A stretch of DNA of 64,000 nucleotides, from NCBI GenBank assembly GCA_019637875.1, contig JAHBUW010000005.1:62001-126000 (forward strand), read 5' to 3'. Position numbers and translations under genes: made by a program. Under the pieces are notes generated by a model that saw only the letters and a list, made by a program, of their open reading frames with translations, ran no database searches and was not told the DNA's origin. Origin of the DNA: Pseudobdellovibrionaceae bacterium (GTDB lineage: Bacteria; Bdellovibrionota; Bdellovibrionia; Bdellovibrionales; Bdellovibrionaceae). Below, in pieces: positions 49,326 through 64,000 of this stretch (position 1 is its first letter; the number at the start of each line of letters is the position of its first letter).

Positions 49326-52304
49326 GTGTCGGTCGATCCGTCCCCGGTTCGTGCTAAAGGCGAAGAGATTCTGAAACGCATGGAGGCCCAGAGCAAGGTC
49401 TCCTACTTCTCGAAAGATTACTGGTACGGCTCGATCATGGATTGGTCCATGAAGAACGAGCAGTTCAAGACGCAGATGTTCCGCTTCGTGGACGTCCTGC
49501 CTTACTTGAACTCCGGCTCCGAGGTCGCGCGCCACTTGAAAGAGTACTTCGCGGACGCGGGCGAAAAACTTCCGCCCGTCTTCAACGTGGGACTCGGCAT
49601 GGGTTCGCTCGCTCCGGGACTCATGGCCGGCGCGATCCGCAAGAACGTCACCTCCATGGCGAAGATGTTCATCACCGGCGAAAATCCCGCCGAGGCTTTG
49701 ACGGTTTTGAAAAAGACCCGCAAGCAGCGCCTGGCCTTCACCGTGGATCTCTTGGGTGAGGCGACCCTCTCGGAAAAAGAAGCCCTCGAGTACCAAGCGA
49801 AGTATCTCGAGATGATCGACGGTCTCGCGAATGACGCCGCGAAGTGGGAAGAAGTTCCGCTCCTGGATCGCGATCACGAGGGCGCAATCCCCAAAGTGAA
49901 CGTCTCGGTGAAGATGACCGCGCTCTACTCGCAGATCAACGACATGGCCTGGGACGACACCAAGACGCGCCTGAAAGAACGCCTGCGCCCGATCTACCGC
50001 AAAGCCATGGAGCGCGGCGTGTTCCTGACTTTGGACATGGAACATTACGGCGTGAAGGACCTGACCCTCGAGGTCTTCCGCGACATCGTCATGGAGCCCG
50101 AGTTCCGCACCTACAAATTCTTCGGCTGCGTGATCCAGTGTTATCTGCGCGACTCGCTCGCGGATTGCCGCAAAGTCATCGCGTGGTCGCGCGAGCGCGG
50201 CGCACCCCTGAACATCCGTTTGGTCAAAGGCGCATACTGGGATTCCGAAACCATCGAGGCCGAGCAGAAGCGTTGGCCCATCCCCGTTTACCTCAACAAA
50301 GCCGAATCCGACGCGAACTACGAAGACTGCACGGAAGAGCTCTTGAAAGCGTTCCCCACCGTGCGCGTGGCCTTCGGCTCGCACAACGTGCGCTCGGTGG
50401 CGTTCGCATTGGTCACCGCCGAAAAGCTGGGCATCCCCCAAGCCCGGGTCGCGATCCAAATGCTGTACGGGATGGCCGACCCCGTGAAGAAGTCGCTGGC
50501 CGACATGGGTTACCGCGTGCGCGAATACGCACCCGTCGGTGAACTGATCCCCGGCATGGCGTACCTGGTCCGCCGTCTGCTCGAAAACACCTCGAACGAA
50601 TCCTGGCTGCGCGGAAAATTCGCGGACGGGATCTCCACCGAAAAACTCCTGCGCGATCCCAAAGACGGTCTTATCCGCACGTCGAGCGAGCTGAAGACCG
50701 GCGATCGTTTCGAAAACGAAGCGCTTTTGGATTTCGCGGTGAAAGAAAATCGCCTGGCGGTCGAGGGAGCGCTGAAAGAGCTGCGCCGTCAGCTGCCGCT
50801 CCAGTGCCCCATCGTCATCAACGGCCAAGAGATCCGCACCCAAGACGCGATCACGCGCGAAAACCCCGCGCACCCCGCGGAAGTCATCGGCCACGTGCAG
50901 ATGGCCTCGACCGCCGAGGCCGAGCTCGCGATGAAAGCCGCGAAAGAGGCCTTCCCCGCGTGGCGCAAAGTGCCCGCCGTCGAGCGCGCCGCCTTGGTCG
51001 ACAAACTCGCCGACCTGATGCTGCGTGACCGCATGGCGCTGATCGCGCGCCAGGTTCTGGAAGTGGGTAAGCCCTGGGCCGAAGCAGACGGCGATGTCTG
51101 CGAAGCCATCGACTTCTGCCGTTACTACGCGCGCGATATGCGTAAACTCGCCGGTGGCGACAGGGTGGCTGGGCTGGCCGGAGGCCAGCGTGTCGGACAC
51201 GCCTTGGGTGAAGTTTCGATCTATCACTACGAACCGCGCGGCGTTTCGCTGGTGATCGCGCCCTGGAACTTCCCGTTCGCGATCCTCGCGGGCATGGTCG
51301 CGGGCGCGCTCGTGACCGGGAACACCGTCGTCATGAAACCCGCCGAGCAGTCCTCGCTTGTCGCGCAGGATCTGATCCGTTTGTTGAAAGAAGCGGGCTT
51401 CCCCCCGGGCGTGGCGCACTTCCTGCCCGGCATCGGCGAAACCGTCGGCGAATACCTCGTGAATCACAAAGACGTTTCGACCATCGCGTTCACCGGCTCG
51501 AAGGCCGTGGGCCTGCACATCCTGCAGCGCGCGGCGGTCGTGCATCCCGGACAAGAGCACGTCAAACGTTGCATCATCGAGATGGGCGGCAAGAACGCGG
51601 TCATCGTGGACTCGGACGCGGATCTGGACGAAGCGGTCGACGCGATCTTGTATTCGGCGTTCGGCTTCGCGGGGCAGAAGTGCTCGGCGGCGTCGCGCGT
51701 GATCGTCCTGGAAGAGAACTACGACAAATTCGAATCGCGTCTGATCGAAGCGGCGAAATCGCTGCACGTCGGTCCCGCCGAAGATCCGAAAAGCTACTTC
51801 GGCCCCGTCGTCGACAGCGTCGCGCAGCTGCGCATCCTGCAGACCATCGAGAAAGCCAAAAAAGAACATACGCTTTTGTTCGAAGGCGAAGTGCAACCGG
51901 TGGGTTACTTCGTGCCCCCGACGATCTTCGGGAACGTCGCGCCCGATTCGGACCTCGCGCAGAAAGAAATCTTCGGCCCGGTCGTCGCGCTCATCCGCGC
52001 GAAGGATCTGGATCACGCGCTCGAGATCGCGAACGGCACCGAATACGGACTCACCGGTGGTCTTTATTCGCGTAGCCCCGCGAACATCGAACGCGTGCGC
52101 CGCGACTACCAGGTCGGCAACTTGTACATCAACCGCGGGATCACGGGCGCCATGGTCGACCGTCATCCCTTCGGTGGATTCAAGATGTCGGGCCTGGGTT
52201 CGAAAACCGGCGGTCCTGATTATCTGAAAGGTTTCATGGAGCCGCGCGTGGTGACCGAGAATACGGTCCGACGTGGTTTTGCGCCGGCCGAGGCTGGCGA
52301 ATAA
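49326..52304 (+). CDS. putA: Bifunctional proline dehydrogenase / L-glutamate-gamma-semialdehyde dehydrogenase
   Basis: A 992-residue PutA that oxidises proline to glutamate in two coupled steps. The FAD-binding proline dehydrogenase barrel covers about 60-450 (MRLVKG-type stretch RLVKGAYWDSE; RLLENTSNESWLR near its end). The aldehyde dehydrogenase covers about 500-980, with catalytic Glu752 (EMGGKNA) and Cys786 (GQKCSAASR), 34 residues apart as usual. There is no N-terminal ribbon-helix-helix, so it is not a self-regulating trifunctional PutA. The GTG start at 49326 has GAGG upstream. Confidence 0.96.
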   Translation: MSVDPSPVRAKGEEILKRMEAQSKVSYFSKDYWYGSIMDWSMKNEQFKTQMFRFVDVLPYLNSGSEVARHLKEYFADAGEKLPPVFNVGLGMGSLAPGLMAGAIRKNVTSMAKMFITGENPAEALTVLKKTRKQRLAFTVDLLGEATLSEKEALEYQAKYLEMIDGLANDAAKWEEVPLLDRDHEGAIPKVNVSVKMTALYSQINDMAWDDTKTRLKERLRPIYRKAMERGVFLTLDMEHYGVKDLTLEVFRDIVMEPEFRTYKFFGCVIQCYLRDSLADCRKVIAWSRERGAPLNIRLVKGAYWDSETIEAEQKRWPIPVYLNKAESDANYEDCTEELLKAFPTVRVAFGSHNVRSVAFALVTAEKLGIPQARVAIQMLYGMADPVKKSLADMGYRVREYAPVGELIPGMAYLVRRLLENTSNESWLRGKFADGISTEKLLRDPKDGLIRTSSELKTGDRFENEALLDFAVKENRLAVEGALKELRRQLPLQCPIVINGQEIRTQDAITRENPAHPAEVIGHVQMASTAEAELAMKAAKEAFPAWRKVPAVERAALVDKLADLMLRDRMALIARQVLEVGKPWAEADGDVCEAIDFCRYYARDMRKLAGGDRVAGLAGGQRVGHALGEVSIYHYEPRGVSLVIAPWNFPFAILAGMVAGALVTGNTVVMKPAEQSSLVAQDLIRLLKEAGFPPGVAHFLPGIGETVGEYLVNHKDVSTIAFTGSKAVGLHILQRAAVVHPGQEHVKRCIIEMGGKNAVIVDSDADLDEAVDAILYSAFGFAGQKCSAASRVIVLEENYDKFESRLIEAAKSLHVGPAEDPKSYFGPVVDSVAQLRILQTIEKAKKEHTLLFEGEVQPVGYFVPPTIFGNVAPDSDLAQKEIFGPVVALIRAKDLDHALEIANGTEYGLTGGLYSRSPANIERVRRDYQVGNLYINRGITGAMVDRHPFGGFKMSGLGSKTGGPDYLKGFMEPRVVTENTVRRGFAPAEAGE

Positions 52305-52318
52305 AATTTTGTTTTCTG

Positions 52319-52420
52319 ACAGGGGAGCTCCACGGAGCTGAGAGGCGGACTTCAAGTTCGCGACCCTTGGGTTCACCTGAACCCTTCACTTGATCCGGTT
52401 CGTACCGGCGGAAGGAGTCG
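52319..52420 (+). ncRNA. TPP (THI-box) riboswitch
   Basis: The leader contains the conserved GGGGAGC, CTGAGAGGCGG, GACCCTTG, then ACTTGATCCGGTTCGTACCG and GCGGAAGGAG. These are the pyrimidine- and pyrophosphate-sensing parts of thiamine pyrophosphate riboswitches. GGAAGGAG, the thiM ribosome-binding site, lies at its 3' edge, so TPP binding probably hides the site and blocks translation. The genes downstream, thiM and thiED, are thiamine genes. Confidence 0.93.
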
Positions 52421-52425
52421 ACTCG

Positions 52426-53289
52426 ATGTCTTGGACAGCATCTTCATTCACGGAGGACTTGGCCTCCCAAACTTCGGACGCGCTCGCGCGCGTTCGTGAA
52501 CGAAAACCCCTTATCCACTGCGTGACCAATCAGGTCGTGATGAACTTCACGGCGAACACGCTCTATGCTTTGGGGGCGTCGCCTTTGATGTCCCACGCCC
52601 CCGAAGAGGCGGAGGAGCTCGCCCGCCTGCGCGCGGGTCTCCTCATCAATATCGGAACGTTAACCGCGCCGTGGCTCGACGACGTTCGCCGCATCCTGGC
52701 CGCCGAGGTCGCGATGGGTTCACGGCGCGCCGTCCTTGATCCCGTCGGCGCGGGCGCGACGCATTTTCGCACCGAAGCCGCACTTGAACTTTTGGCGACG
52801 GGCGCTTTCCGTGTCCTGCGCGGGAACGCCTTCGAGATTCTGTCTCTCGGCGGTGAAAGCGCGCGCGGCCAAGGCGTCGAAAGTTTCGAAGAGTCCGACG
52901 CCGCACTTCACGCGGCCCGCACGCTCGCGCAAAAACACGCCCTCGTCGTCGCGGTCAGCGGCGCCGTGGATCTCGTCACCGACGGCGAGCGCGTCGTGGA
53001 ACTGCGTAATGGTCACCCCTACTTCACGAAAGTCACCGGCGCGGGCTGCGCGCTGAATGCGGTCATCGCCGCCATGACGAGCGTGACCGACGACCCCTTA
53101 CTGGCGACCGCCCAGGCTCTCGCCGCCTTCAACATCGCGGGGGAAATCGCGGCGCGGAATTCCGCGGGCCCCGGCTCGTTCGCGATGAGCTTCTTGGACG
53201 CGCTCGCGAATCTGAATCCAAGCGACATCACCTCCTGCCTGCGGGTCGAAATGACCTCCGGCAACGTCCAAAGCGAGGTCTTGCCATGA
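52426..53289 (+). CDS. thiM: Hydroxyethylthiazole kinase
   Basis: A 287-residue ThiM (E. coli 262), which phosphorylates the thiazole alcohol for thiamine salvage. Seen: CVTNQVVMNFTANTLYALGA, DPVGAGATHFR, RGNAFEIL and the ATP/catalytic VTGAGCALNAV. The frame is open upstream to 52390, but that lies inside the riboswitch; ATG 52426 follows GGAAGGAG. It overlaps the ThiE-ThiD gene by 4 bp (ATGA). Confidence 0.95.
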   Translation: MSWTASSFTEDLASQTSDALARVRERKPLIHCVTNQVVMNFTANTLYALGASPLMSHAPEEAEELARLRAGLLINIGTLTAPWLDDVRRILAAEVAMGSRRAVLDPVGAGATHFRTEAALELLATGAFRVLRGNAFEILSLGGESARGQGVESFEESDAALHAARTLAQKHALVVAVSGAVDLVTDGERVVELRNGHPYFTKVTGAGCALNAVIAAMTSVTDDPLLATAQALAAFNIAGEIAARNSAGPGSFAMSFLDALANLNPSDITSCLRVEMTSGNVQSEVLP

Positions 53290-54809
53290 ACCGCAGCTTC
53301 GATCCCCGCCTGTACTTCGTCCACGATCACGGCTTCAATCCCTCTCATGCGATCTTAGCGGCCGCCCTCCGTGGCGGCGTGCGGATGGTGCAGCTGCGCG
53401 CGAAGGCATTGCCCTCCGAGGAGTTTCGCGCCTGGGCGGCACCAGCGATCGCGCTCTGTCGCCAAGCGCGCGCGACCGTGCTCATCAATGACAATGTGGA
53501 GCTCGCGTTACTCCTGGGCGCGGATGGCGCCCACGTCGGGCAACGAGACCTCTCCGCACGCGAAGCGCGAGCACGCCTCGGAGACAAAGCGATCATCGGA
53601 CTGAGCCTCGAGTCGACGTCACAGATCGACCATCCAGACGTCGAGTGCGCGGACTATGTGGCGGCGAGCGGCGTTTTCCCGACGACCACGAAAACCGATC
53701 TGCCTTCGGATTTGGGTTTAGTGGGCGTACGCGAACTTCGCGCTCGGACCGCGAAGCCGCTCGTCGCGATCGGCGGCATCCATGCGGGAAATGCCCGCGC
53801 GGTGTTTTCGGCGGGCGCGGACGGCATCGCGATCATCAGCGCTATCGCGGGCGCCGACGATCCCCAACTCGCCGCCGCAGAGATCGCGGGCCTCGCGCGT
53901 AAAGCCGTGGTCGACTGCGCGCTTCTGAGTCGCTCACCCGTCACCGCGCGCGCGGGCCTCCGCTGGCAAGACCCGCGCGCTTTGACCATCGCAGGCTCGG
54001 ACTCGGGCGGCGGCGCGGGCATTCAGGCGGATCTCAAAACGATGACCAGCCTCGGCGTTTTCGGAATGTCGGCGTTGACCGCGCTCACCGCGCAGAACAC
54101 GACGGGCGTGCAGTCCGTCCACGACGTCGCGCCGGAATTTTTGCGTGCGCAGATCGCGTCAGTCCTCGGTGACTTGGGCGCCGACGCGGTGAAGATCGGT
54201 ATGCTCCACCGGCGCGAAGTGATTCGCGCGATCCGCGATGAGCTCGCGGAGTTCCCGCAAATCCCCGTGGTCCTCGATCCGGTGATGGTCGCCAAAGGGG
54301 GCCACCGTTTGATCGAGCCCGACGCCATCTCCGCGCTCATCGAAATTCTGTTCCCGCAGGTGGATCTGATCACGCCGAACCTCAGCGAGGCCGAAGCGCT
54401 GCTCGAGGTCGCGGGCAGCGGCGCTCAACCGACGGTTCGCGGGGGCGTGGATCTTTCGCGCGCCTCGCGCGAAGACCTGCGCGGGGCCGCCTTGCGACTT
54501 TTGGAGTTGGGGCCCGAAGCGGTGCTGCTGAAGGGCGGTCATCATGAGTCCCCGCTCGCCGCGGATCTTCTCGTCGCGCGGGACGGGACGGAACAGTGGT
54601 TCGAATCCGCGCGCGTCGAGACCCCGAACCTGCACGGCACGGGCTGCACGCTCTCGAGCGCCATCGCCTCGTTCACGGCGCGCGGCTATCCGCTGGTGAC
54701 GGCGGTCGCGAAGGCCAAGGATTATGTGACGGAGGGAATCAGATCAGGCTCTCGTTTTCGGTGGGGCCAAGGTCAGGGCCCGATCGATCATATTCACCTT
54801 CACCGATGA
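53286..54809 (+). CDS. thiED: Fused thiamine-phosphate synthase (ThiE) and HMP/HMP-P kinase (ThiD)
   Basis: A 507-residue fusion. Residues ~1-205 are a ThiE barrel (GGVRMVQLRAK, LINDNVELALLLGADGAHVGQ, AIGGIHAGNA). Residues ~230-507 are a ThiD ribokinase-like domain (TIAGSDSGGGAGIQADLKTM, LLKGGHH, HGTGCTLSSA). ThiD makes HMP-PP and ThiE joins it to the ThiM product, so with thiM this is a complete salvage unit for TMP. The last 71 bp overlap the convergent rhomboid gene. Confidence 0.95.
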   Translation: MNRSFDPRLYFVHDHGFNPSHAILAAALRGGVRMVQLRAKALPSEEFRAWAAPAIALCRQARATVLINDNVELALLLGADGAHVGQRDLSAREARARLGDKAIIGLSLESTSQIDHPDVECADYVAASGVFPTTTKTDLPSDLGLVGVRELRARTAKPLVAIGGIHAGNARAVFSAGADGIAIISAIAGADDPQLAAAEIAGLARKAVVDCALLSRSPVTARAGLRWQDPRALTIAGSDSGGGAGIQADLKTMTSLGVFGMSALTALTAQNTTGVQSVHDVAPEFLRAQIASVLGDLGADAVKIGMLHRREVIRAIRDELAEFPQIPVVLDPVMVAKGGHRLIEPDAISALIEILFPQVDLITPNLSEAEALLEVAGSGAQPTVRGGVDLSRASREDLRGAALRLLELGPEAVLLKGGHHESPLAADLLVARDGTEQWFESARVETPNLHGTGCTLSSAIASFTARGYPLVTAVAKAKDYVTEGIRSGSRFRWGQGQGPIDHIHLHR

Positions 54810-55701
54810 AACGACGGTGCGCGATGGCGACGGCGGCGCCGAAGAGGGCTCCGCCCACGTGCGCGGTCGTCGCGACCGTTTGACCGATGAGCTGCGCGGG
54901 CGACGGGATGAATTCGGTCACGAAGTTCACCAGATCCGGCAAAAGGCAAAGCGGTAAGATCCACCATTTCGACAGATAGATCTCGCCGTAGAAACCTTGA
55001 AACGGCGAGAAGAAGAAATAGTAGCGCACGTTCTTGCGCGGCTCGTACACGAGGTAGAACGCGATCAGCGCGGTCACCGCCGCGCTCGCCCCCACCATCG
55101 GGAGCGCCGAGGGTGCGTCGAGCTTCATCGAAAAATACGCGCCGAAAATTCCGCCCAGAAGGCTGACGAGCAGCACGGTCAGCGAGCCCGCGAGCCTTTC
55201 GATCGCGATTCCGAACAGCAGCAGGAAGACCATATTCGACAAAAGATGGATCGGCGTCGCGTGCATGAACTGGTACGTAATCCAGGTCAGCGGCTTTTGC
55301 ACGGCGACCGCGGGATCGCGCGGCAGACCGAACTTCGTGACGGCGCGGGCGCCCGTCTGATCGCGCAGCTTCGAGACCTCGGCGCGCCAGTTTTTGATTT
55401 CGTCGGCGTCACCGCGAAACGGGAACTCGGGCACCGCGGTCACGAAGCCCGGATCGCGCATGGCCTTCCCGCCCCAGAGCACCAGCTCGTGGGGTTCGGG
55501 CAGGTCCTTCATTCCCAGGTACTGACGGTAGTAAACGCCCGTGCGTTGCAGATTGCGCACCTCGAAGAAACTTTCCTTCGCGGTGGGCGCGGGACGCGGA
55601 TCCGAAGTGATGAAGTAAAACCCCATATTCAGAAAGATCAGCGTCCACGTGAGGGGCGCGACCGCGAAATCCCGAAGTCCCGCCAGGAAAGGAACGATCA
55701 T
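54739..55701 (-). CDS. Rhomboid-family intramembrane serine protease
   Basis: A 320-residue membrane protein with the rhomboid core: QFMHATPIHLLSNMVFLLLFG (conserved H and N in helix 2), the nucleophile in MVGAS206 and the catalytic His281 in TAHVGGALFG. The motif is G-A-S-A rather than the common G-x-S-G. A ~110-residue periplasmic insertion follows the first helix. It cleaves membrane-anchored proteins; the substrate is unknown. Its 3' end overlaps thiED by 71 bp antisense, and it overlaps the RDD gene by 4 bp, forming an operon. Confidence 0.88.
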   Translation of the reverse strand: MIVPFLAGLRDFAVAPLTWTLIFLNMGFYFITSDPRPAPTAKESFFEVRNLQRTGVYYRQYLGMKDLPEPHELVLWGGKAMRDPGFVTAVPEFPFRGDADEIKNWRAEVSKLRDQTGARAVTKFGLPRDPAVAVQKPLTWITYQFMHATPIHLLSNMVFLLLFGIAIERLAGSLTVLLVSLLGGIFGAYFSMKLDAPSALPMVGASAAVTALIAFYLVYEPRKNVRYYFFFSPFQGFYGEIYLSKWWILPLCLLPDLVNFVTEFIPSPAQLIGQTVATTAHVGGALFGAAVAIAHRRFIGEGEYDRSGPDLGPTENESLI

Positions 55702-57533
55702 TCTTCACGTCCCTCGGCGTTCGCGGGCACGTGATTTTTATCCGCGTGCGCGGGCGCACGGCTTTTGGGTTTGTCGTTGAGTTCTTCCACCGGCTTGAGT
55801 TGCGGACCGTCTTTGGCCAGACCGCGGGGCTCTTGCAAAGGCGAATCACTCGTGTGGTCGAACGCTTGGTACGCGAGCCACCAGTCCGGCGCGTTTCTTT
55901 GACCGCGCTGGAACTCCAGCGCCAACTCGTCGCCGGCGTTTTTCTTGTCGCGGCTCAGCCACCACAGAAGATAAGGACGCGCCCAATGGTCTTGCGCGAC
56001 CGACTTCAAAGTTTTGAGGCTGGCCTTCTTCGGTTCGAGGGCCCAGTGGGTTTCCTCGTCCGCCGCCAAACGCGCTTTCGCCTGGGTTTCCACGACGACG
56101 TCTTTGCGGTTGTGGCAACGGGACTCGAGCTGAAAGGTCATCGCGATGTCCGGAGTCCACGCCTCGCCGCCCGCCGTCTCAAGTTCGGTGCGCAGCGCGC
56201 GGCAGATCGTGGGGCTTTCACCGCCGATGCCGCAGGTTTTCGTGATCGCCGAAAAACACGCCCACGCCATGGTGCGGAAGCGGCGCGACTCGGTCCATGC
56301 GGGCGCAAGCAGGGTCATCCCCTCGCGGAACTCGCTGTCCGCGCCTTTCAGCGCGAGCGCTTTCAGGCTCATCTCTTGAACGTAGTCGGCCAGCTCCAGC
56401 GGCCAGGGGTTTTTCACCGCGACCTTGCCGATCTCGTCGAAGTCCCCGCGTTGGAAGGCTTGTTTCAATTGGATGATCTGACCGGTCCAGGTGCGATCAG
56501 TGATCTCGGTTTGCGCGTCACCTTGATAGTAGCGCGCAAGTTCGCAGCGGAGCTCTTCATCCGCAGTCTTCGCCGAGGCCAGACCGCGCCCCGCAGGCGC
56601 CGCCGTCTCGTCGGGGGCTTCCGTTAACGCCGGGCAGGCCTGCGCGAATTGGTTCGCGGTTTCTTCATCGGTCGTTTTCGAGTCCGGTTTCGCGGCCAAA
56701 GCGCCACGGATCAGGTGGGCCCAGGCTTGCGTCTCTTCGGCTTGCGTCCAGATGGCGAAGTCGGCTTCGTTCTCTAGGCATTCGCGCTCGGCTTTTCCGG
56801 CTTCGAACTGCGCGAGCATGAAGTCCAGGCGCGCCTGCGCCGTGGTCATGCCCGAGTGCGCGGGGATTTTGGTTTTCGTCTCGCAGAGGTAGGCGTTCTT
56901 TTCGAGTTCGCCGCGCTTGAGCGCGCCGAGTTTCACTTGGTGTCGGAGCTGCGTGAGTCCCGCGAAGGCGAAGACGAACAGCGACAGTCCGAAACCCCAG
57001 TACAGATTGCGGAAGAAACGCGACTCGAGCGCGTGGGGCGCTTCAAATTTCTGCTCTTTGCGGGTGATGACCCGGCTCTCGGCCAGACGGTCATGCCAAG
57101 GACGACGCTCGGGATGCGAAACGACTTCCAGGCAGGGAATCGCGAAACACAGAATTTCGAAGATTTGCGCGCAGGCGCGGGTGAAACTTTGGCCGAGCGT
57201 CAGGCGCCCGCCGTTCACGTGCACGACCTCCAAAAGGAAGACTTTCTTTCCGGGCGTCGCGCCCCACCGCCAAACGCAGAGAGTCTGCACGACGAGCACG
57301 AAAACGAGCGCCGTGAAAAGACCGAAACCGAAGAACATCAGGGCTTCGGTGGATCCGGGGCTCAGGCTTTGGTGATAGTGGAAGTCGCGCCAAAAGGGTT
57401 TGCCGATCAGGAGCGCGGCGGGCGACCACAAACAGAGGTCGAAGCCGAACGCGAGAAGGCGATCAACCAACGGAGCGCCACGCTCCGCGAGCGCGGCGGG
57501 ATTCTTGAAATCGGTGCGGGAATCAGTGCTCAT
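55698..57533 (-). CDS. RDD-family membrane protein with large soluble domain
   Basis: A 611-residue protein. The N-terminal RDD domain has LVDRLLAFGFDLCLW (start of helix 1), WGATPGKKVFLLEVV and RPWHDRLAESRVI. A further transmembrane helix (about 178-198) follows, then a ~400-residue soluble, Ala/Glu-rich domain with several Cys that I do not recognise. RDD proteins are poorly understood and some act in Na+/H+ exchange. The ATG at 57533 lies at the foot of a perfect hairpin; a TTG at 57536 is adjacent. Operon with the rhomboid gene. Confidence 0.75.
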   Translation of the reverse strand: MSTDSRTDFKNPAALAERGAPLVDRLLAFGFDLCLWSPAALLIGKPFWRDFHYHQSLSPGSTEALMFFGFGLFTALVFVLVVQTLCVWRWGATPGKKVFLLEVVHVNGGRLTLGQSFTRACAQIFEILCFAIPCLEVVSHPERRPWHDRLAESRVITRKEQKFEAPHALESRFFRNLYWGFGLSLFVFAFAGLTQLRHQVKLGALKRGELEKNAYLCETKTKIPAHSGMTTAQARLDFMLAQFEAGKAERECLENEADFAIWTQAEETQAWAHLIRGALAAKPDSKTTDEETANQFAQACPALTEAPDETAAPAGRGLASAKTADEELRCELARYYQGDAQTEITDRTWTGQIIQLKQAFQRGDFDEIGKVAVKNPWPLELADYVQEMSLKALALKGADSEFREGMTLLAPAWTESRRFRTMAWACFSAITKTCGIGGESPTICRALRTELETAGGEAWTPDIAMTFQLESRCHNRKDVVVETQAKARLAADEETHWALEPKKASLKTLKSVAQDHWARPYLLWWLSRDKKNAGDELALEFQRGQRNAPDWWLAYQAFDHTSDSPLQEPRGLAKDGPQLKPVEELNDKPKSRAPAHADKNHVPANAEGREE

Positions 57534-57558
57534 CAAGAGTCTTGTCGGACTCTTGATG
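57531..57558. repeat. Hairpin containing the start codon of the RDD gene
   Basis: CATCAAGAGTC (57531-57541), 6-bp loop, GACTCTTGATG (57548-57558), perfect 11-bp arms. On the minus-strand transcript the last three bases of the 3' arm are the ATG start codon, so the start would be paired. Confidence 0.75.
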
Positions 57559-57584
57559 TCTCGTTTGGAGTCGAGATTCGGGCT

Positions 57585-58250
57585 TTATTCGGCCGTCTGA
57601 ATCGCGAGGCCCAGGAAGTGGCCTTCGCTATCGTATTTCATCTCGGCGCGACCGACCAGCTGTTGGTCCTGGCCGATGAGCTGCCAGCTTTGTTTGCCGT
57701 CAGCTTGGTAAGCCAGTTTCGCTTGAGCGTAATCGACTTTCATCAGCGAGCGGTACTTCATCAAGAAGGCCTGCGCGTCGCTCAAGTGGATCGGCTGATC
57801 GGTGATTTCCGCCGAATCGATGTATTCGATCTCGGTCACTTTGGTGTCATCGACCGATTGGATCGAACGGATGCGGTATTTGCCCGCGAGCGGACCGTAA
57901 CGGAGGTCGTCCATCAAAGTCACTTTTTGCGAAACCGAAGCGGGCTGGCGATCGGTCTTCTCTTTACCCAGACGCTGCGCCAATTGATGTTCCCACTCGA
58001 GATCACGGAAGACATTCACGGGTTGCGCGCTCGCGATGGCGCGATTCAGGGCGTCCAAACGATCGGGACCCTGCATATTGGTCGTCACATAGTGAGGACG
58101 CTCTTGGCGCATCATCTGTTCGTTGGCGAACACCGCAACCAAGATCAACGAGAAGAGCGACAGCGAAAGGAACAGGCGTTGCCCTTCGAGCTTTTTAAGA
58201 GCCCAGGCACCTTTATTCTTTTCGACGTATGACGTTTTCTCAGTTTTCAT
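57585..58250 (-). CDS. Membrane-anchored protein of unknown function
   Basis: A 221-residue protein with a short cytosolic head, one transmembrane helix (LFLSLSLFSLILVAVFA, about 24-40) and a periplasmic domain of ~180 residues rich in charged residues, with YRIRSIQSVDDTKVTEIEYI. No cysteines and no family recognised. The start is chosen at ATG 58250, correctly spaced from GAGGA; ATG 58256 and an open frame to 58322 exist. It lies 51 bp before the RDD gene and probably belongs to that operon. Confidence 0.7.
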   Translation of the reverse strand: MKTEKTSYVEKNKGAWALKKLEGQRLFLSLSLFSLILVAVFANEQMMRQERPHYVTTNMQGPDRLDALNRAIASAQPVNVFRDLEWEHQLAQRLGKEKTDRQPASVSQKVTLMDDLRYGPLAGKYRIRSIQSVDDTKVTEIEYIDSAEITDQPIHLSDAQAFLMKYRSLMKVDYAQAKLAYQADGKQSWQLIGQDQQLVGRAEMKYDSEGHFLGLAIQTAE

Positions 58251-58545
58251 TTTCATATCCTCGCTGGCGTTTTCCTTTAACAGAGCGAAGCCTGTGCCAG
58301 CCCCAAACTCTCTAAAACGCATCGGCCAAACACCCGCGCCACTTTTGCGCCCGACACCCGTTCACGGGTTCGACAGTGCCTCGACAACGCCTCAGATTGA
58401 TTCACAATTCTTTCACCGCGCGCGGACGCTGTGCTACGAGATTCATTATCATCCTTCAGCACATTTTTTGATACGGGATCATTGTCGAGGTCGCCTATCT
58501 GGCTCAAACCCAATACGGATCAAGATCATTTAGACTTTTAGTGAT
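58251..58545. other. Transition region at the edge of the AT-rich cassette
   Basis: 295 bp without a credible gene. Composition shifts from the GC-rich background to AT-rich at about 58380-58540. No direct repeat, tRNA fragment or integrase site could be seen by eye. Confidence 0.5.
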
Positions 58546-59250
58546 CTAACTCAGATATTCCTGAAGCTTCGTAAAAAGGACATCTGCATCTTCAAATTTC
58601 TGGTGGAAGTTCAAATACATCTCAGCGTAGTCTAGGCGCTCCACTGTGTCTTCGACTTGGTTCTTACGCTTGCGGTAAGCTCGTCCCACTTTGGAATAGA
58701 CAATGTGGAGGCTATCCGCTGGCCCCGGAAGATTCCTTAAGTCAAAAGTCTTGGGATCTACACCCAAGGCACCTCGAACTACGTGGTCTGTAAGCCTAGA
58801 ATCTAACCTACCGAAGTGAGAGTGTTCAGCGATGAACCAAGCCTCAATTTCCATCACGCCTAAAATAAACACTGGTTCAACAGGCTTGGTTTTGATGCGA
58901 AACATCAAGCCTGTCCGAAGTTTAGGAATATCTACAAGAGAGAACTGCGGGAAAACATCTCTCACTCCAAAAATTAGTCCGTATCCCGATTTAACCAAGC
59001 TGTCGTAATTGTCACGAACGTCCGAGGCGACTCGATTATCAGCACCAGAGTCAAAAATGGAAACGAACACTTCCGCTTCAGAGTTTTCATACCGGCCGAC
59101 AAATGATCGAACTCTAGGGCTCGCATCAGAACCACCGCTAAGTTTATAATTATTAATTTGAATTCTATTTTTTCCGGCGATCTCTATAAGCAATCGATGA
59201 AAAAATATCTGCTCAGTTTGGCCTTCTACGAAGATTGCAATCTTCTTCAT
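58546..59250 (-). CDS. TOPRIM-like/DUF4276-type protein, partner of the OLD-like ATPase
   Basis: A 234-residue protein beginning MKKIAIFVEGQTEQIFFHRL. The EGxTE motif after the first strand, VFVSIFDSGAD further on, and GVMEIEAWFIAEH resemble the acidic motifs of TOPRIM-fold DUF4276-type proteins. These pair with ABC-type ATPases in defence systems. An in-frame TTG at 59280 exists; ATG 59250 is preferred, 8 bp after the ATPase stop. The gene is AT-richer than its neighbours, suggesting horizontal transfer. Nuclease activity is inferred only. Confidence 0.75.
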   Translation of the reverse strand: MKKIAIFVEGQTEQIFFHRLLIEIAGKNRIQINNYKLSGGSDASPRVRSFVGRYENSEAEVFVSIFDSGADNRVASDVRDNYDSLVKSGYGLIFGVRDVFPQFSLVDIPKLRTGLMFRIKTKPVEPVFILGVMEIEAWFIAEHSHFGRLDSRLTDHVVRGALGVDPKTFDLRNLPGPADSLHIVYSKVGRAYRKRKNQVEDTVERLDYAEMYLNFHQKFEDADVLFTKLQEYLS

Positions 59251-59258
59251 TTGAAGGC

Positions 59259-60407
59259 CTACTCTTTGGAGCTTTCCCAAATGAAATCACTAGCTAGAAA
59301 ATCGAAATTATTCAGGCCAGTAAATTTGAATTCGTCGAATTTCTCTTTGGAATTAGAGTAGTTGTACACATTGCAAATATGACCTTTACGATCAAGAACC
59401 GTCCATGACTCGAGGGGAACTTTGTTCATAACAAAACGATCATTCGATGCCATGATTAGCTGCATCGATGTGTTCGAGCATTTGGCTAGCAGCAGCTCGA
59501 TTAGTTTACAAGATCGATCGAAATCCAGCCCCTCTCCGATGTCGTCAATGATTACGCAACTAGGCTGATAAGCAAAGTCAGAATAAACAAGTTGAATGAC
59601 TAGTGAAAGCGCTCTGAACATACCGTTCGATATATGAGCTTGCTGTATCGGCTGCGGAAGATCTTTTTCTTTCACCCAGATCCAAGAAGGGCGGCCGCTT
59701 ACTTCAGGGAAGTTGATTCCAGCCGGTGCATCAATACTAACATTCTCAAGTTCATATCCAAGTGAGTTAAACTCAGAAATTACACGATTCTTAAATACGT
59801 CTCCAAACTGAGTGACACCTGCTTGGAAAATTCCGACTACGCGTCTGGTATCCTTTGGAGCATCGAACTTGGAAATTACGCTAGGAGAGTCTCCTTGGCT
59901 AATAGCCACCAAATCTTTTCCTAGGTTTCCACTGAACTCAAAATAATAAAGCGATGCGCCCCATTGATGAAGAATTTCGAAGAAGGGATGGTTGATCTGA
60001 TCACGTCTTCCAACGGCAGCTAATTGCGTTTCTGGCGCCTGGAAAGCAATCATCTTTCCTACGGTCTGCGAGAATACTTGACCGATACCGCCGGCGCCTC
60101 GGTCAAGAAGGACTGCCCCATTTTTAATGAACTTTTCAATGACGACAGCATTATTAACTATGCTCAAGATGTAACGATAGCTATCGCTGCCGTCTGAAAA
60201 TTCAGCGTCGTAGTGACCTGAACTCCATTGGAGCTCAAGTTGTGCGCCCAGTAGTTTACCGAGCCCAGTAATTACATTGAGTGTTCTAGTCTTACCTTTG
60301 GCATTCTTTCCGACGACTAAGTTTACTTGTCCAAGGCTTAACCCTTGAAGCTCCCAAGCATAACCAGTACCCTCAAGTTCCGAATAGGACAGCGACTTTA
60401 GAAACAT
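59259..60407 (-). CDS. OLD-like/AAA_21 ABC-type ATPase
   Basis: A 382-residue ATPase. Walker A is VVGKNAKGKTR near residue 32, an ABC-signature-like SNGMFRALSLVIQL lies around 260-275, the Walker B is SCVIIDDIGEGLDF and a switch-like segment is ASNDRFVMNKVPLESW. This is the SMC/Rad50/OLD branch of ABC ATPases, often called AAA_21 or AAA_15. With the TOPRIM-like gene directly downstream it forms a two-gene unit like split OLD systems or PARIS (AriA/AriB). Visibly lower GC than the flanks. Confidence 0.82.
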   Translation of the reverse strand: MFLKSLSYSELEGTGYAWELQGLSLGQVNLVVGKNAKGKTRTLNVITGLGKLLGAQLELQWSSGHYDAEFSDGSDSYRYILSIVNNAVVIEKFIKNGAVLLDRGAGGIGQVFSQTVGKMIAFQAPETQLAAVGRRDQINHPFFEILHQWGASLYYFEFSGNLGKDLVAISQGDSPSVISKFDAPKDTRRVVGIFQAGVTQFGDVFKNRVISEFNSLGYELENVSIDAPAGINFPEVSGRPSWIWVKEKDLPQPIQQAHISNGMFRALSLVIQLVYSDFAYQPSCVIIDDIGEGLDFDRSCKLIELLLAKCSNTSMQLIMASNDRFVMNKVPLESWTVLDRKGHICNVYNYSNSKEKFDEFKFTGLNNFDFLASDFIWESSKE

Positions 60408-60484
60408 GCCGCTTTTTCTCCTTACGACTTACTTCGGTCAAATGTTTAAGTATATGATTCACAACGATTTCCTTGGGAACAACA

Positions 60485-60519
60485 AATAAAAACGCCCGGG
60501 ATGTAAACCGGGCGTTTCC
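60485..60519 (-). terminator. Terminator of the Fis-type regulator gene
   Basis: AAACGCCCGG/CCGGGCGTTTTTATTTG read on the minus strand, about 50 bp after the regulator's stop and immediately before the AT-rich cassette. Confidence 0.85.
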
Positions 60520-60569
60520 ATACCCGAGCCGACTTTCGCCCGGGTTCTTAGTTTCAATAGAGGATCGGA

Positions 60570-61001
60570 TTAAGCAGCGCGCTTCTTCCGAGCGACCGAG
60601 GGGTCGATCTGGTACTGCTTCACTTTGCGGTACAGAGTCGCGCGGCCGATGCCGAGGGCCTTTGCCGCTTCGGTGAGGTTTCCGCGGAATTGGAGGATCG
60701 CGTTTTCGATCGCTTTCGACTCCAGCTCTTCCATGGTTGCCACTTTACCGCTGTCCGAAGTGTTGGTCGAAGCCACACCGGGGAAGGGCAAGACATTCGA
60801 ACGCTCGAGGGGATTCAGACCACCCGACAGCGAGGGAACGCCAGCGACCATTTGGTTGCGGAAAACGGGGTTTTCCAGACCTTCACGCCATTGGCCGGGC
60901 GAGTAGGTATAGCAAGTCATGCCTTGCGACGAGCAGAAAGTTTTAACGCGTTCGCCGCCATCCATCTCATCACTGATTACGTATACAATCGTACGGCCCA
61001 T
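60570..61001 (-). CDS. Fis-type helix-turn-helix regulator
   Basis: A 143-residue protein. The last ~45 residues form a Fis/HTH_8 DNA-binding domain: AIENAILQFRGNLTEAAKAL, then GIGRATLYRKVKQY. The N-terminal ~85 residues (GRTIVYVISDEMDGGERVK) look like a small alpha/beta module, without the sigma54-interaction ATPase found in NtrC-type proteins. It may be a free-standing regulator derived from an NtrC relative. ATG 61001 with AAGGGGG upstream is preferred over the frame start at 61037. It has its own terminator. Confidence 0.8.
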   Translation of the reverse strand: MGRTIVYVISDEMDGGERVKTFCSSQGMTCYTYSPGQWREGLENPVFRNQMVAGVPSLSGGLNPLERSNVLPFPGVASTNTSDSGKVATMEELESKAIENAILQFRGNLTEAAKALGIGRATLYRKVKQYQIDPSVARKKRAA

Positions 61002-61148
61002 TCGGATATTTCCCCCTTCGGAAATTTTGTGGTTCAAAACAATAAGCCCGTCGGCTCACACTGAACCTATCGGCGCACCATTGTGAGAATTGAGAGCAAG
61101 CAAAAAATAAATTTTCCCGAAGTGAGACGCGAACTCTTGGTCAGCCGT

Positions 61149-62015
61149 CTAGAATTCAGACAGCAGGTTCAATAAAAACGTCTCATTCCCGAAGCTTGGG
61201 ATGAGCTGAATGTGAGACGCCGAAGGGGGGAGAAGCCCCCCCTGAGACACCGAAACTGGACGATCGTTCGGTGAAATTTCGGTGAAAGCGGCGTACGCAT
61301 AACCCATCCAGACCCCGACTCCCGCCCCGGCGAGCGTATCGCTGAACCAGTGTTTGTCGTCGGCAAGACGAGACAGCGCCACGCCGGACGCCACTATATA
61401 AGAGGGAACGCCCACCTTCCACCCGTACGCGAAGTGCAGCGACGACGCCGTCGCGAACGCGGTGGAGGTATGACCCGAAGGCCACGACTGCCGGTTCTGA
61501 CTCGTGCCGGGACGTTTGCGCCCGGCGACCGTCTTCAGCGCGTAAGTCCACACGCCCGCCCCCGCCCAGGCTTTGAGGTGCGCCTCGCCGTTCGCGCGAT
61601 CGAATTGATACTGCGTGAGCCCGATCAGCAACCCCGGCACCCCGGTCCCCAGCAGATCCCCGACATGGGAGGTGTCCGGATGCATGCGCTGGTGATTCAC
61701 CCAAGCGTCGCGCACGCCCTCGTCGCCCTTGTAGGCAAGCCCGCTCACCGCGAACCCCGTCAGCACGATCTTCGCGGAGGTCGCATTGAAGCTGCGACCG
61801 AACCACTCCTCTTTCGTTTCGGGATATTTCGGAATGTAGTCGGTGTAAGCGGCGCCAGCCGGAAGCGCGATCGTCAGAGCGAGCGTCAGGACCGCGAGTC
61901 CCCGCCCCATTCGCGAAACGTCCGCGCCACGGACGAAGACGGACTTCCGAAGCGGAAGTAAATATCGGCGGCGGAGGAACTTCCGAAGGGGAAGAAAGAA
62001 GAGCGGGAGCGACAT
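61149..62015 (-). CDS. PAP2-family membrane or periplasmic phosphatase
   Basis: A 288-residue protein with the full phosphatidic-acid-phosphatase signature: KTVAGRKRP (KxxxxxxRP), PSGHTS and SRLADDKHWFSD (SRxxxxxHxxxD). Such enzymes remove phosphate from lipid or undecaprenyl diphosphate substrates. The N-terminus has an Arg-rich stretch and a hydrophobic segment (LAVLTLALTIALPAGAAY) that may be a signal peptide. ATG 62015 with GGAG is chosen; ATG 61910 would give a conventional signal peptide and remains possible. Confidence 0.83.
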   Translation of the reverse strand: MSLPLFFLPLRKFLRRRYLLPLRKSVFVRGADVSRMGRGLAVLTLALTIALPAGAAYTDYIPKYPETKEEWFGRSFNATSAKIVLTGFAVSGLAYKGDEGVRDAWVNHQRMHPDTSHVGDLLGTGVPGLLIGLTQYQFDRANGEAHLKAWAGAGVWTYALKTVAGRKRPGTSQNRQSWPSGHTSTAFATASSLHFAYGWKVGVPSYIVASGVALSRLADDKHWFSDTLAGAGVGVWMGYAYAAFTEISPNDRPVSVSQGGLLPPSASHIQLIPSFGNETFLLNLLSEF

Positions 62016-62099
62016 CTCCCCCACTCTCCAAATTTAGCGGGCCTGAGGCAAACAAAACTCGCAGACGCGGTGACCGATGGTCCCCCAAGACCCCGTAAA

Positions 62100-62131
62100 A
62101 ACAAAAACGCCCCCGTCTCCGGAGGCGTCCT
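62100..62131 (-). terminator. Terminator of the acidic unknown gene
   Basis: ACGCCTCCG-GAGA-CGGGGGCGT followed by TTTTGTTTTT on the minus strand, about 30 bp after the stop of the gene at 62163. Confidence 0.85.
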
Positions 62132-62162
62132 TTGCTTTCTCAAATCTCAGGCGGACCGCAAA

Positions 62163-62678
62163 TTAACGACGACCCGACTTAATCTTGAGTTGCAGCTTCG
62201 AGATGAGGTGCACGGCCATCTTCTCTTGCACTTTGCACATCTTCAGCTCGTCCTTGCGGTACGAACGTTGGCTGGGCGTGAGGGTGCCGGTCTCGAGTTC
62301 CATTTCGTAATCGAGTTTCGAAGAGCGGATGCCTTCGAGCTCTTTGGTCTGTTGCTTGAAGAGCTTCGAAACCTGGCTCAAGGGGCCGACTTCGATCCAC
62401 TCTTCTTTACCGCGGTACCAGCTGACCATACGGAGGAAGCGCGCTTTGTTTTTTGCCAGAGTGAACTTCGGATAACGGGCCTCTTCCAGATCGAGGATGT
62501 TCTCGATCTCGTCCAGGTTCACGTCGTCTTCGGTGTCTTCGAGCATCCCGCTGGCGGCGAGCTTCTCCATCTCCTCCAACGCGGCCTGCTCTTCGCGCAT
62601 GGCTGCGTCGCGAGCTTCTTTGTCCAAATCGTCAGAGTCGTTGTCGACATTATCGAAGTTTTCAACGTCGGTGATCAT
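62163..62678 (-). CDS. Uncharacterised acidic/basic helical protein
   Basis: A 171-residue cytosolic protein. The first ~75 residues are very acidic (DNVDNDSDDLDKEARD, EDTEDDVNLDEIENIL). The remainder is basic and helical (KFTLAKNKARFLRMVSWYRG and KLQLKIKSGRR at the end). The opposite charges suggest an intramolecular or nucleic-acid/ribosome-associated role, but no family is recognised. ATG 62678 is preceded by GGGAGG about 10 bp away. Own terminator. Confidence 0.65.
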   Translation of the reverse strand: MITDVENFDNVDNDSDDLDKEARDAAMREEQAALEEMEKLAASGMLEDTEDDVNLDEIENILDLEEARYPKFTLAKNKARFLRMVSWYRGKEEWIEVGPLSQVSKLFKQQTKELEGIRSSKLDYEMELETGTLTPSQRSYRKDELKMCKVQEKMAVHLISKLQLKIKSGRR

Positions 62679-62818
62679 GGTGGAACGGCCTCCCCGGCAT
62701 GCAAACAATCGAAAGGAATTATCCCTTGGAATGGTCTGCCCTTATACTTCACAACAGTGTCTTAACACAAGAGGTCAAAGAACAAATTTTGGCGGTTCTT
62801 CTGAAATAAGTTCAGGAC

Positions 62819-63715
62819 TTACGGGCTCCGGCGGCCCACCAATTCGAGATGATCGGCCGCCTTTTCGCTGCTGGCTTCAAAACAAAGGAAAAGCCCGGGA
62901 TAGCTGTCCTCGATCTCGCGGACCTCTTTGTCGCTCAGAGCCAAGACCGCGATGCCGCCCAGCACGACGGGAATTTCGACCCGCGCGAGGTTCGGCAGAT
63001 CACGGCGAAGATGCTCGAGATCCACGTAGCTGATGCCGAAAATCTGCGCCCCGGATTCTTGAAGCGCCTCGTTCAACGCCGTGAACGGCAGATCCACCCC
63101 GAAGTAGTGAACCGTGTAGCCGCGGTATTTCAGATGGCAGCCCACGAGCATCAGCCCGCCCTCGTGACGCTCCCCTTCGAGTGTCGCCAGCGCGAAGCTC
63201 GTCGCCTGCGTGGCGGGAAAATCGAGGGTCATGAATGCCCCAAGTTTCATGCGCAAAAACCCCGAAACGAAGTGCTCTTGCGCGACGGAAATCTGACCGC
63301 GCGACCAATCGTCGCCCAAACGGCGCAGCAGCTCTTCAAAGACCAGACTGAACATCTGTTGCGGAGCGAGCTTCGCCCCGAAAATCATCCAGTGCTGCGC
63401 GGTCGCCGCGATGTCGTAACGGAGGAGCGACTCGTAAACGAGGCGCACGCGGAACGTGACGTCGTCACTGGAGGTGACCGGCGCCGGCTCCTCGTCGACG
63501 TAGCCTTCGTACAGTTTCGTGAGATCTTGAAGTTGGCGCCCTTCGTTCTGCAGCCGCAGCGCGAGCTTCAAAAAGCTCACGTCTTTCTGCGCGTATAGCC
63601 GGTGCCCGCCCGCACTGCGCGCGGGCTGAGGGTATCCGTATCGTTTTTCCCAGTTTCGCAACGTCGCCGCCGGAAGGCCGGTCAACTTCGAAACGGTTTC
63701 GATCGAGAACTTCAT
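62819..63715 (-). CDS. CarH/LitR-like MerR regulator with B12-binding domain
   Basis: A 298-residue regulator. The N-terminal MerR helix-turn-helix (SIETVSKLTGLPAATLRNWE) is followed by a cobalamin-binding region. It carries both marks of light-sensing B12 regulators: W137-x9-E147-H148 and E182-x-H184-x-x-G187. In CarH, adenosylcobalamin binding and its photolysis control DNA binding. Targets such as carotenoid genes are not in this window. A related role as a B12-dependent dark repressor is inferred from the motifs. Confidence 0.88.
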   Translation of the reverse strand: MKFSIETVSKLTGLPAATLRNWEKRYGYPQPARSAGGHRLYAQKDVSFLKLALRLQNEGRQLQDLTKLYEGYVDEEPAPVTSSDDVTFRVRLVYESLLRYDIAATAQHWMIFGAKLAPQQMFSLVFEELLRRLGDDWSRGQISVAQEHFVSGFLRMKLGAFMTLDFPATQATSFALATLEGERHEGGLMLVGCHLKYRGYTVHYFGVDLPFTALNEALQESGAQIFGISYVDLEHLRRDLPNLARVEIPVVLGGIAVLALSDKEVREIEDSYPGLFLCFEASSEKAADHLELVGRRSP

Positions 63716-63768
63716 CGCGGCAACTGTGACATGAAAATGAGGTGGCGGCTAGTTTCCCCGAGGAAACC

Positions 63769-64000
63769 TCACGGAGCCGCGCACTCTCCTGCTTTTTGAC
63801 AGTCCATCATCGTGCGGCGCAGATCCATCAGATCTTCCAACCCCAGACGGAGTTCACGCTCGAAGCCGTGACGACGGCTGCCGCGCGGACCGATCAGAAC
63901 GAAGTCCCGCAGATCGCTGAAGCGCGACATCTTGAAGTAGCGATGGTCTTGACGGACCCAGAGTCCTTGCGTGCGTTGGATGTGATCCATGAAACGCAGG
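63769..64000 (-). CDS. Uncharacterised protein, C-terminal part (partial, right edge)
   Basis: The frame is open to the right edge of the window (codons for LRF precede the first visible ATG at 63990), so this may be the 3' end of a longer gene. About 76 residues are visible, Arg-rich, with LRLGLEDLMDLRRTMMDCQK near the end. No domain recognised. It lies 53 bp upstream of the CarH-like gene on the same strand and may be co-transcribed. Confidence 0.5.
   Translation of the reverse strand, partial: LRFMDHIQRTQGLWVRQDHRYFKMSRFSDLRDFVLIGPRGSRRHGFERELRLGLEDLMDLRRTMMDCQKAGECAAP

Follow-up and report, generated by a model that had tools for sequence, protein, structure and literature searches.

The gene pair and its insertion site

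The question raised by this locus is what two AT-rich genes do in a stretch of much higher GC content, where they lie alone among core genes with no other defence or mobility genes beside them. The window is the whole stretch of 64,000 nucleotides of Pseudobdellovibrionaceae DNA that was analysed. The original prediction described adjacent genes 8 bp apart, with ABC Walker A and B motifs in one protein and EGxTE plus acidic motifs in the other; both open reading frames were found on the minus strand at that distance, with the TOPRIM gene downstream of the ATPase gene, and all of these motifs were present. The features are listed below.

59259-60407, minus strand: gene 1, split OLD-like ABC ATPase, putative sensor/gate, ATG start, 382 aa (AlphaFold2 pLDDT 93.0; Foldseek; PADLOC AbiLi 5.6e-15, partial)
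58546-59250, minus strand: gene 2, DUF4276/OLD-like TOPRIM protein, putative nuclease effector, ATG start, 234 aa (AlphaFold2 pLDDT 93.4; invariant E9, D98, E134, E136 and K194)
60288-60311, minus strand: Walker A GKNAKGKT, with G38 and K39 invariant
59634-60287, minus strand: ATPase middle segment, aa 41-258, candidate specificity/sensor segment (exchange seen in relatives, inferred here)
59613-59633, minus strand: ABC signature ISNGMFR, right border of the exchanged segment
59523-59558, minus strand: Walker B/D-loop CVIIDDIGEGLD, Walker B IIDD and D-loop GLD, catalytic Glu changed to Asp289
59436-59456, minus strand: H-loop IMASNDR, switch His changed to Asn322
59212-59226, minus strand: TOPRIM motif I EGQTE (E9, E13)
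58957-58965, minus strand: VRD98, putative remaining first Asp of the DxD position, second Asp changed to Phe100
58843-58851, minus strand: ExE (E134, E136), metal-B-like motif
58669-58677, minus strand: YxK194, putative counterpart of the class 2 OLD catalytic Lys
60486-60521, minus strand: terminator-like hairpin at the end of the upstream Fis-type gene, 14-bp stem
60570-61037, minus strand: flanking core gene, Fis-family HTH regulator, insertion border
57585-58253, minus strand: flanking core gene, unnamed protein without Pfam match, insertion border

As the hairpin closes the Fis-type gene upstream, the cassette is probably transcribed from a promoter of its own; the sigma-70 search gave no convincing promoter for it (2 found versus 2.8 expected). 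The pair is not a chance arrangement, since its order and spacing were kept in dozens of relatives spanning phyla and dN/dS was well below 1 for both genes in all close pairs that could be estimated, except one near-identical pair. Elsewhere in the window, at 53286-54809, a single 507-aa gene encoded a fused thiamine-phosphate synthase and HMP-P kinase (ThiE-ThiD).

The GC content was 43.8% for the ATPase gene and 44.0% for the TOPRIM gene versus 59.7% for the window, and no other 1,862-bp stretch of the window was as low in GC as the cassette (-4.3 SD). The GC3 of the cassette genes was 0.42-0.44, compared with 0.66-0.68 in both flanking genes. Each of the two genes was present in one copy in the host genome, and a profile search found the ATPase in only one of 369 genomes of the host phylum, covering 182 genera. 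The two flanking genes, 2.3 kb apart in the window, adjoined each other with gaps of 156-390 bp in at least six related genera (G008, G018, G014, G011, G007, G013), so that the empty site is visible in the relatives. In at least one other related genus (G001), the same flanking genes enclosed an S41 peptidase gene with a PDZ domain (L098:2253-3530). With its low GC, its rarity in the phylum and the empty site in relatives, the cassette is horizontally acquired, as had been proposed. The GC content, which had been described as clearly below the surroundings, was 44% versus 60%, the lowest 1.9 kb of the window; the synteny comparison suggested at that time found relatives that do not carry the cassette at this locus. 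No integrase, transposase or other mobile gene was seen at the insertion, and the search for a target-site duplication gave only short imperfect repeats, such as one of 17 nt at 82% (58398 and 60455), which did not stand out from the other repeats listed.

The two proteins, their family and the named systems

The AlphaFold2 model of the ATPase (pLDDT 93.0) was an ABC head, and the closest structures in Foldseek were the heads of SMC/cohesin, Rad50 and PtuA. Two rows from plasmid records were left out of the structure-model alignments. The Walker A, ABC signature and D-loop were intact, and an ABC ATPase with Walker A, signature and Walker B is what marks the split OLD-like superfamily. Of 85 proteins, 83 had Asp in place of the Walker-B Glu (D289) and Asn in place of the switch His (N322); the other two belong to a sister family, whose ATPase carries LIDEFENSLG and TSHH (TSHHPY). 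The pattern of the collection scan, matched by 83 loci, itself contained DD.GEGLD, and the hits of a profile-only search were checked since the invariance of this motif could have been an artefact of the pattern. All 12 further complete core profile hits, a few of which were the same genes as pattern-found loci, carried IDDIGEGLD and [ST]ND, which argued against a search artefact. ABC ATPases with such changes are expected to bind ATP with little turnover. The two replacements therefore predict that ATP is bound and little hydrolysed, and the ATPase would gate the nuclease by its nucleotide-bound state rather than by turnover.

The TOPRIM protein was also modelled well (pLDDT 93.4). The residues E9 and E13 (EGxTE), D98, E134 and E136 (ExE), and K194 were invariant or nearly so in the family, and the second Asp of DxD was mostly Tyr or Phe. 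The metal/catalytic set of the class 2 OLD proteins consists of E400, E404, D455, D457, T506, E508 and K562, in which the second DxD Asp contacts the metal solely via water (PMC6755086). The conserved TOPRIM residues were of the same kind and in the same order as this set, with an E-to-E spacing of 4 in both and with the Lys 58 residues after the last Glu of the ExE/TxE motif, compared with 54 in class 2 OLD. D98 would occupy the DxD position according to the strand order of the model. In contrast to class 2 OLD, the second Asp of DxD was lost in this TOPRIM, hence nuclease activity is not assured, and a role as metal-dependent nuclease is a plausible prediction from the conserved residues. 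With the TOPRIM model, Foldseek retrieved Pyrococcus PH0156 (2p62) with a probability of 1.00 and a TM score of only about 0.5, retrieved no OLD structure, and gave nothing significant against BFVD.

The domain assignments are convincing only at the level of the family and not of the single protein. In the window proteins alone, the Pfam matches of AAA_21 (E=0.0036), DUF4276 (E=0.0049) and OLD-like_TOPRIM (E=0.031) were all below the gathering score, and the PDB profile searches gave only weak matches for the ATPase, mostly around Walker A, and one chance-looking match for the TOPRIM protein. Among 60 family members, DUF4276 was matched by 57 and OLD-like_TOPRIM by 22. At this level the proposed pairing of an OLD-like ATPase with a TOPRIM protein held, the TOPRIM similarity that was to be checked being found, and the Pfam match agreed with the suggestion of DUF4276 rather than DUF4435. 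DUF4276 was not mentioned in the text of the literature searched.

The genome scan revealed at least 80 loci of the pair with identities of 37-49%. Among the loci listed, the TOPRIM gene lay directly downstream of the ATPase gene in 78 of the 81 with room for it, and two of the three exceptions (L005, L006) belonged to the sister family, with its own TOPRIM gene at that place. In the set of 292 cyanobacterial genomes, all eight intact TOPRIM genes adjoined the ATPase gene and none stood alone; two further ATPases had broken TOPRIMs, and one genome had a TOPRIM remnant only. The ATPase and TOPRIM distances were correlated (Mantel r=0.74, 0 of 999 permutations). These results showed that the pairing is obligate, with the TOPRIM gene sometimes broken beside an intact ATPase. 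In one locus (L017:2888-5448), the TOPRIM gene was interrupted by a TnpB-like gene (Cas12f1-like TNB domain). Fourteen named phyla were represented in the tree, where the labels changed at least 20 times although they were clustered; the spread is horizontal plus vertical. In pattern-free profile searches, core members were found in 10 of 292 cyanobacterial and 3 of 398 pseudomonadotal genomes. They scored 375-510 bits and the next scores were at most 108 bits, with the exception of one short fragment (119 bits); by this gap from 375 to 108 bits, the family is sharply bounded. The nearest plasmid relatives consisted of an AAA ATPase with DUF4276 or a hypothetical protein (Paraburkholderia pSYMBR3459, Bacteroides finegoldii), and the Bacteroides finegoldii pair (L004:5974-7765) was located within a capsule-polysaccharide locus between a tyrosine kinase and a sugar transporter. 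Among viral contigs, one relative (L087) came up in the alignment scan and none in the single-protein scan.

The sister family (loci L140-L178, e.g. L142:1420-2601 and 731-1444) is a second two-gene ATPase/TOPRIM family of the same layout, which occurred in cyanobacteria and Pseudomonadota and had no dedicated PADLOC model. It kept the catalytic Glu and the switch His and, in the two examples aligned, a TOPRIM DxD, and it scored at most 108 bits, compared with at least 375 bits for core members.

Split OLD-type ATPase/TOPRIM pairs, e.g. PARIS AriA/AriB, reportedly act against phage. A split ATPase with a TOPRIM protein is the plan of PARIS, and the association of the two is also found in AbiL and MADS (PMC12409363). 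The module resembled PARIS (class 4 OLD) in its adjacent ATPase and TOPRIM genes and differed from it in several respects. The AriA model matched only aa 245-328 (E=1.3e-7, weaker than AbiLi), the AriB models did not match the TOPRIM protein up to E=1, the TOPRIM protein was DUF4276-like instead of DUF4435-like, and the Walker B Glu and switch His were replaced. The expectation of a type distinct from PARIS was thus borne out by the partial AriA match and the unmatched AriB. AbiL also consists of an ABC ATPase plus a TOPRIM protein, and AbiLi was the best PADLOC match of the ATPase (5.6e-15, 53 bits, over part of the profile) and matched 60 of 60 ATPase family members, although the match of AbiLii to the TOPRIM protein (E=0.0069, with 40 profile positions scattered across 186 residues) was not credible. 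In one locus (L031:6208-7829), a true AbiLi (3e-76), followed by a shortened frame in the AbiLii position, was located directly upstream of the module; it aligned with the module ATPase at 25% over 88 aa only and, unlike it, had the canonical Walker-B Glu and switch His, which implied that two distinct systems coexist there.

Among the other candidates, HEC-01 of PADLOC, for which no description was found in the literature searched, provided the best match of the TOPRIM protein (HEC-01B, 1.1e-5, also matched by 53 of 60 TOPRIM members) and a weak match of the ATPase (HEC-01A, 1.7e-8), the alignments in the window proteins being weak and partial (38 residues for HEC-01B, 105 for HEC-01A). The mad3/mad4 genes of MADS are also a pair of an ATPase and a short TOPRIM-like protein, within a larger system; their matches were weak (0.0011 and 0.00047), and no other MADS genes were recognised near the module, the flanks being core genes. 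Gabija GajA (class 2 OLD) has an ABC head with a regulatory role instead of strong hydrolysis, as is predicted for the module. In GajA, the ATPase and the TOPRIM domain are fused in one chain, which works with the GajB helicase; here there were two chains and no helicase among the flanking genes scanned. PtuA of Septu was among the nearest folds of the ATPase, and its partner is PtuB, an HNH protein and not a TOPRIM protein. For the retrons with an OLD effector (class 3), no reverse transcriptase was seen among the flanking genes scanned, and Rfam matched no ncRNA at 50000-64000. Membership in PARIS, AbiL, MADS, Gabija or a retron failed on the partner or the layout, and no model of the PADLOC 2023 library fitted both proteins. 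By profile matches and motifs the pair is clearly separated from AbiL, PARIS and MADS. The module would work like a split OLD system, and the tests used place it in none of the named ones, with HEC-01 left as a candidate; the split OLD-like ATPase/TOPRIM plan is known, and the variant is new.

Exchange of the middle segment of the ATPase among relatives

Comparison of close relatives showed that the ATPases were alike from residue 1 to Walker A (about residue 40) and from the ABC signature (about residue 260) to the end, and in most close pairs the whole TOPRIM protein was alike as well. The block between Walker A and the signature was either equally alike or much more different. The C-terminal part of the ATPase was at least 85% identical in 67 pairs; among these, the identity of the middle block was below 76% in 43 pairs, 76-80% in two, and at least 80% in 22. 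The mean identity of the discordant pairs fell at residue 41 and recovered at about residue 260, and outside the block the discordant and concordant pairs were nearly the same. One Nostoc pair (L080/L086) was unlike most pairs in its TOPRIM gene, which had 76% nucleotide identity compared with about 85-93% in the C-terminal part of the ATPase and the flanks.

The synonymous distances changed in both directions at the block. In Pseudanabaena, dS was 0.06 in the block versus 0.38 outside for L047/L058 and 1.65 versus 0.51 and 0.29 for L047/L076; in Planctomycetota, the block of L037/L050 was saturated versus 0.18 and 0.09 outside. In L134/L136 the block was the most similar part (dS 0.03 versus 0.24 and 0.35). 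AU tests in two cyanobacterial groups rejected the block tree for the C-terminus plus TOPRIM (p=5e-5 and 2e-91), and rejected the reverse as well (p=1e-68 and 0.04). The pattern recurred in Planctomycetota, Cyanobacteriota and Spirochaetota (L043/L063), in pairs that were not independent of each other. Fast evolution as the sole cause of the divergence was rejected, since the block was the most similar part in some pairs (L134/L136) and saturated in others (L037/L050) on constant backgrounds. In further pairs (L134/L080), dN was raised without raised dS, which implied that rapid change also contributes. At the level of sequence, these comparisons demonstrate that the segment from Walker A to the signature is exchanged as alleles by recombination among relatives, and this allele exchange is what is new here. 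In the sister family, the same block was the most divergent part. The counterpart in the window (59634-60287) had no close relative, and the exchange is known from the relatives alone.

The swapping of this segment points to the part of the ATPase that recognises the invader, and the middle segment would be the specificity part recognising the trigger. Change in the block is not accompanied by change in the TOPRIM protein, which makes the block an unlikely main contact with that protein.

Proposed mechanism and alternatives

The genomic context of the family bears on defence only indirectly. Some neighbours of the relatives matched the AbiL, Shango, DRT, BREX-helicase and type I RM (specificity) models or those of further candidate defence genes, and PADLOC family matches numbered 188 near the module versus 71 beyond 5 kb, these being names and not member counts, an excess near the module that is only suggestive. 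Only a minority of the relatives adjoined known defence genes, and many adjoined housekeeping genes. The cassette is probably an immunity module with a predicted anti-phage function. With reasonable rather than high confidence, we regard it as a horizontally acquired two-gene immunity module formed by an ABC/OLD-like ATPase as sensor/gate and a TOPRIM metal-dependent nuclease as effector. The ATPase would sense the invader or its effect and hold its TOPRIM partner in check, the middle segment would recognise the trigger, and the ATP-bound, slowly hydrolysing ATPase would gate the nuclease by its nucleotide state. Sensing would release the TOPRIM protein as a metal-dependent nuclease acting on probably tRNA, other RNA or DNA, and the cleavage of nucleic acid, likely accompanied by growth arrest, would give protection. 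More tentatively, the pair may belong to a class of its own within split OLD-like immunity, one that has not been described before. Its ABC ATPase, poor in hydrolysis, would hold the specificity in an exchangeable cassette, and populations would retarget the system by swapping the segment from Walker A to the signature through recombination, with the ends and the TOPRIM protein kept constant. Such retargeting is likened to that of type I restriction systems, which swap their target-recognition domains.

The replacement of Glu and His in every core member, including the 12 complete pattern-free ones, would also suit a nucleotide sensor of the GajA type, in which ATP on a hydrolysis-poor ATPase keeps the TOPRIM protein off and NTP depletion during infection activates it, with no phage protein being recognised. 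GajA, which is inhibited by physiological NTP via its ATPase-like domain, is a precedent (PMC8136825). The exchange of a discrete segment argues instead for the recognition of varying partners, as a pure nucleotide sensor needs no alleles, and we consider this explanation unlikely.

The same exchange bears on two non-immune roles. It is not expected of a toxin-antitoxin-like addiction or plasmid-maintenance module, with the TOPRIM protein as toxin and the ATPase as restraint, kept for its own spread and not for immunity. The small two-gene unit, its presence on plasmids, the TOPRIM genes broken beside intact ATPases in several loci and the lack of any intact TOPRIM gene alone would agree with such a module; however, the counts of broken TOPRIMs are inflated by the ATPase-based ascertainment, and an ATPase gene preceding the effector gene and an ABC protein of 382 aa are unusual for it, which makes this reading improbable. 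A cellular housekeeping or DNA-repair role would accord with the many copies standing single among housekeeping genes and has a precedent in archaeal Cran1, an OLD-family protein with a non-defence role in the cell cycle (PMC12796447). It seems slightly less probable again, given the rare and patchy occurrence (1 of 369, 10 of 292 and 3 of 398 genomes), the foreign composition, the spread across phyla and the allele exchange.

The recognition of infection by split ATPase/TOPRIM systems is known for few cases. In the family described here, which spans many phyla, is sharply bounded and is not covered by a model of its own in the PADLOC 2023 library, the fixed change of Glu to Asp and His to Asn predicts ATP gating rather than turnover. 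The allele exchange marks, within about ten residues, the part of the ATPase that is pressed to vary while the nuclease is not, and the location of the sensor thus becomes a domain-swap question for which the natural alleles are ready-made.
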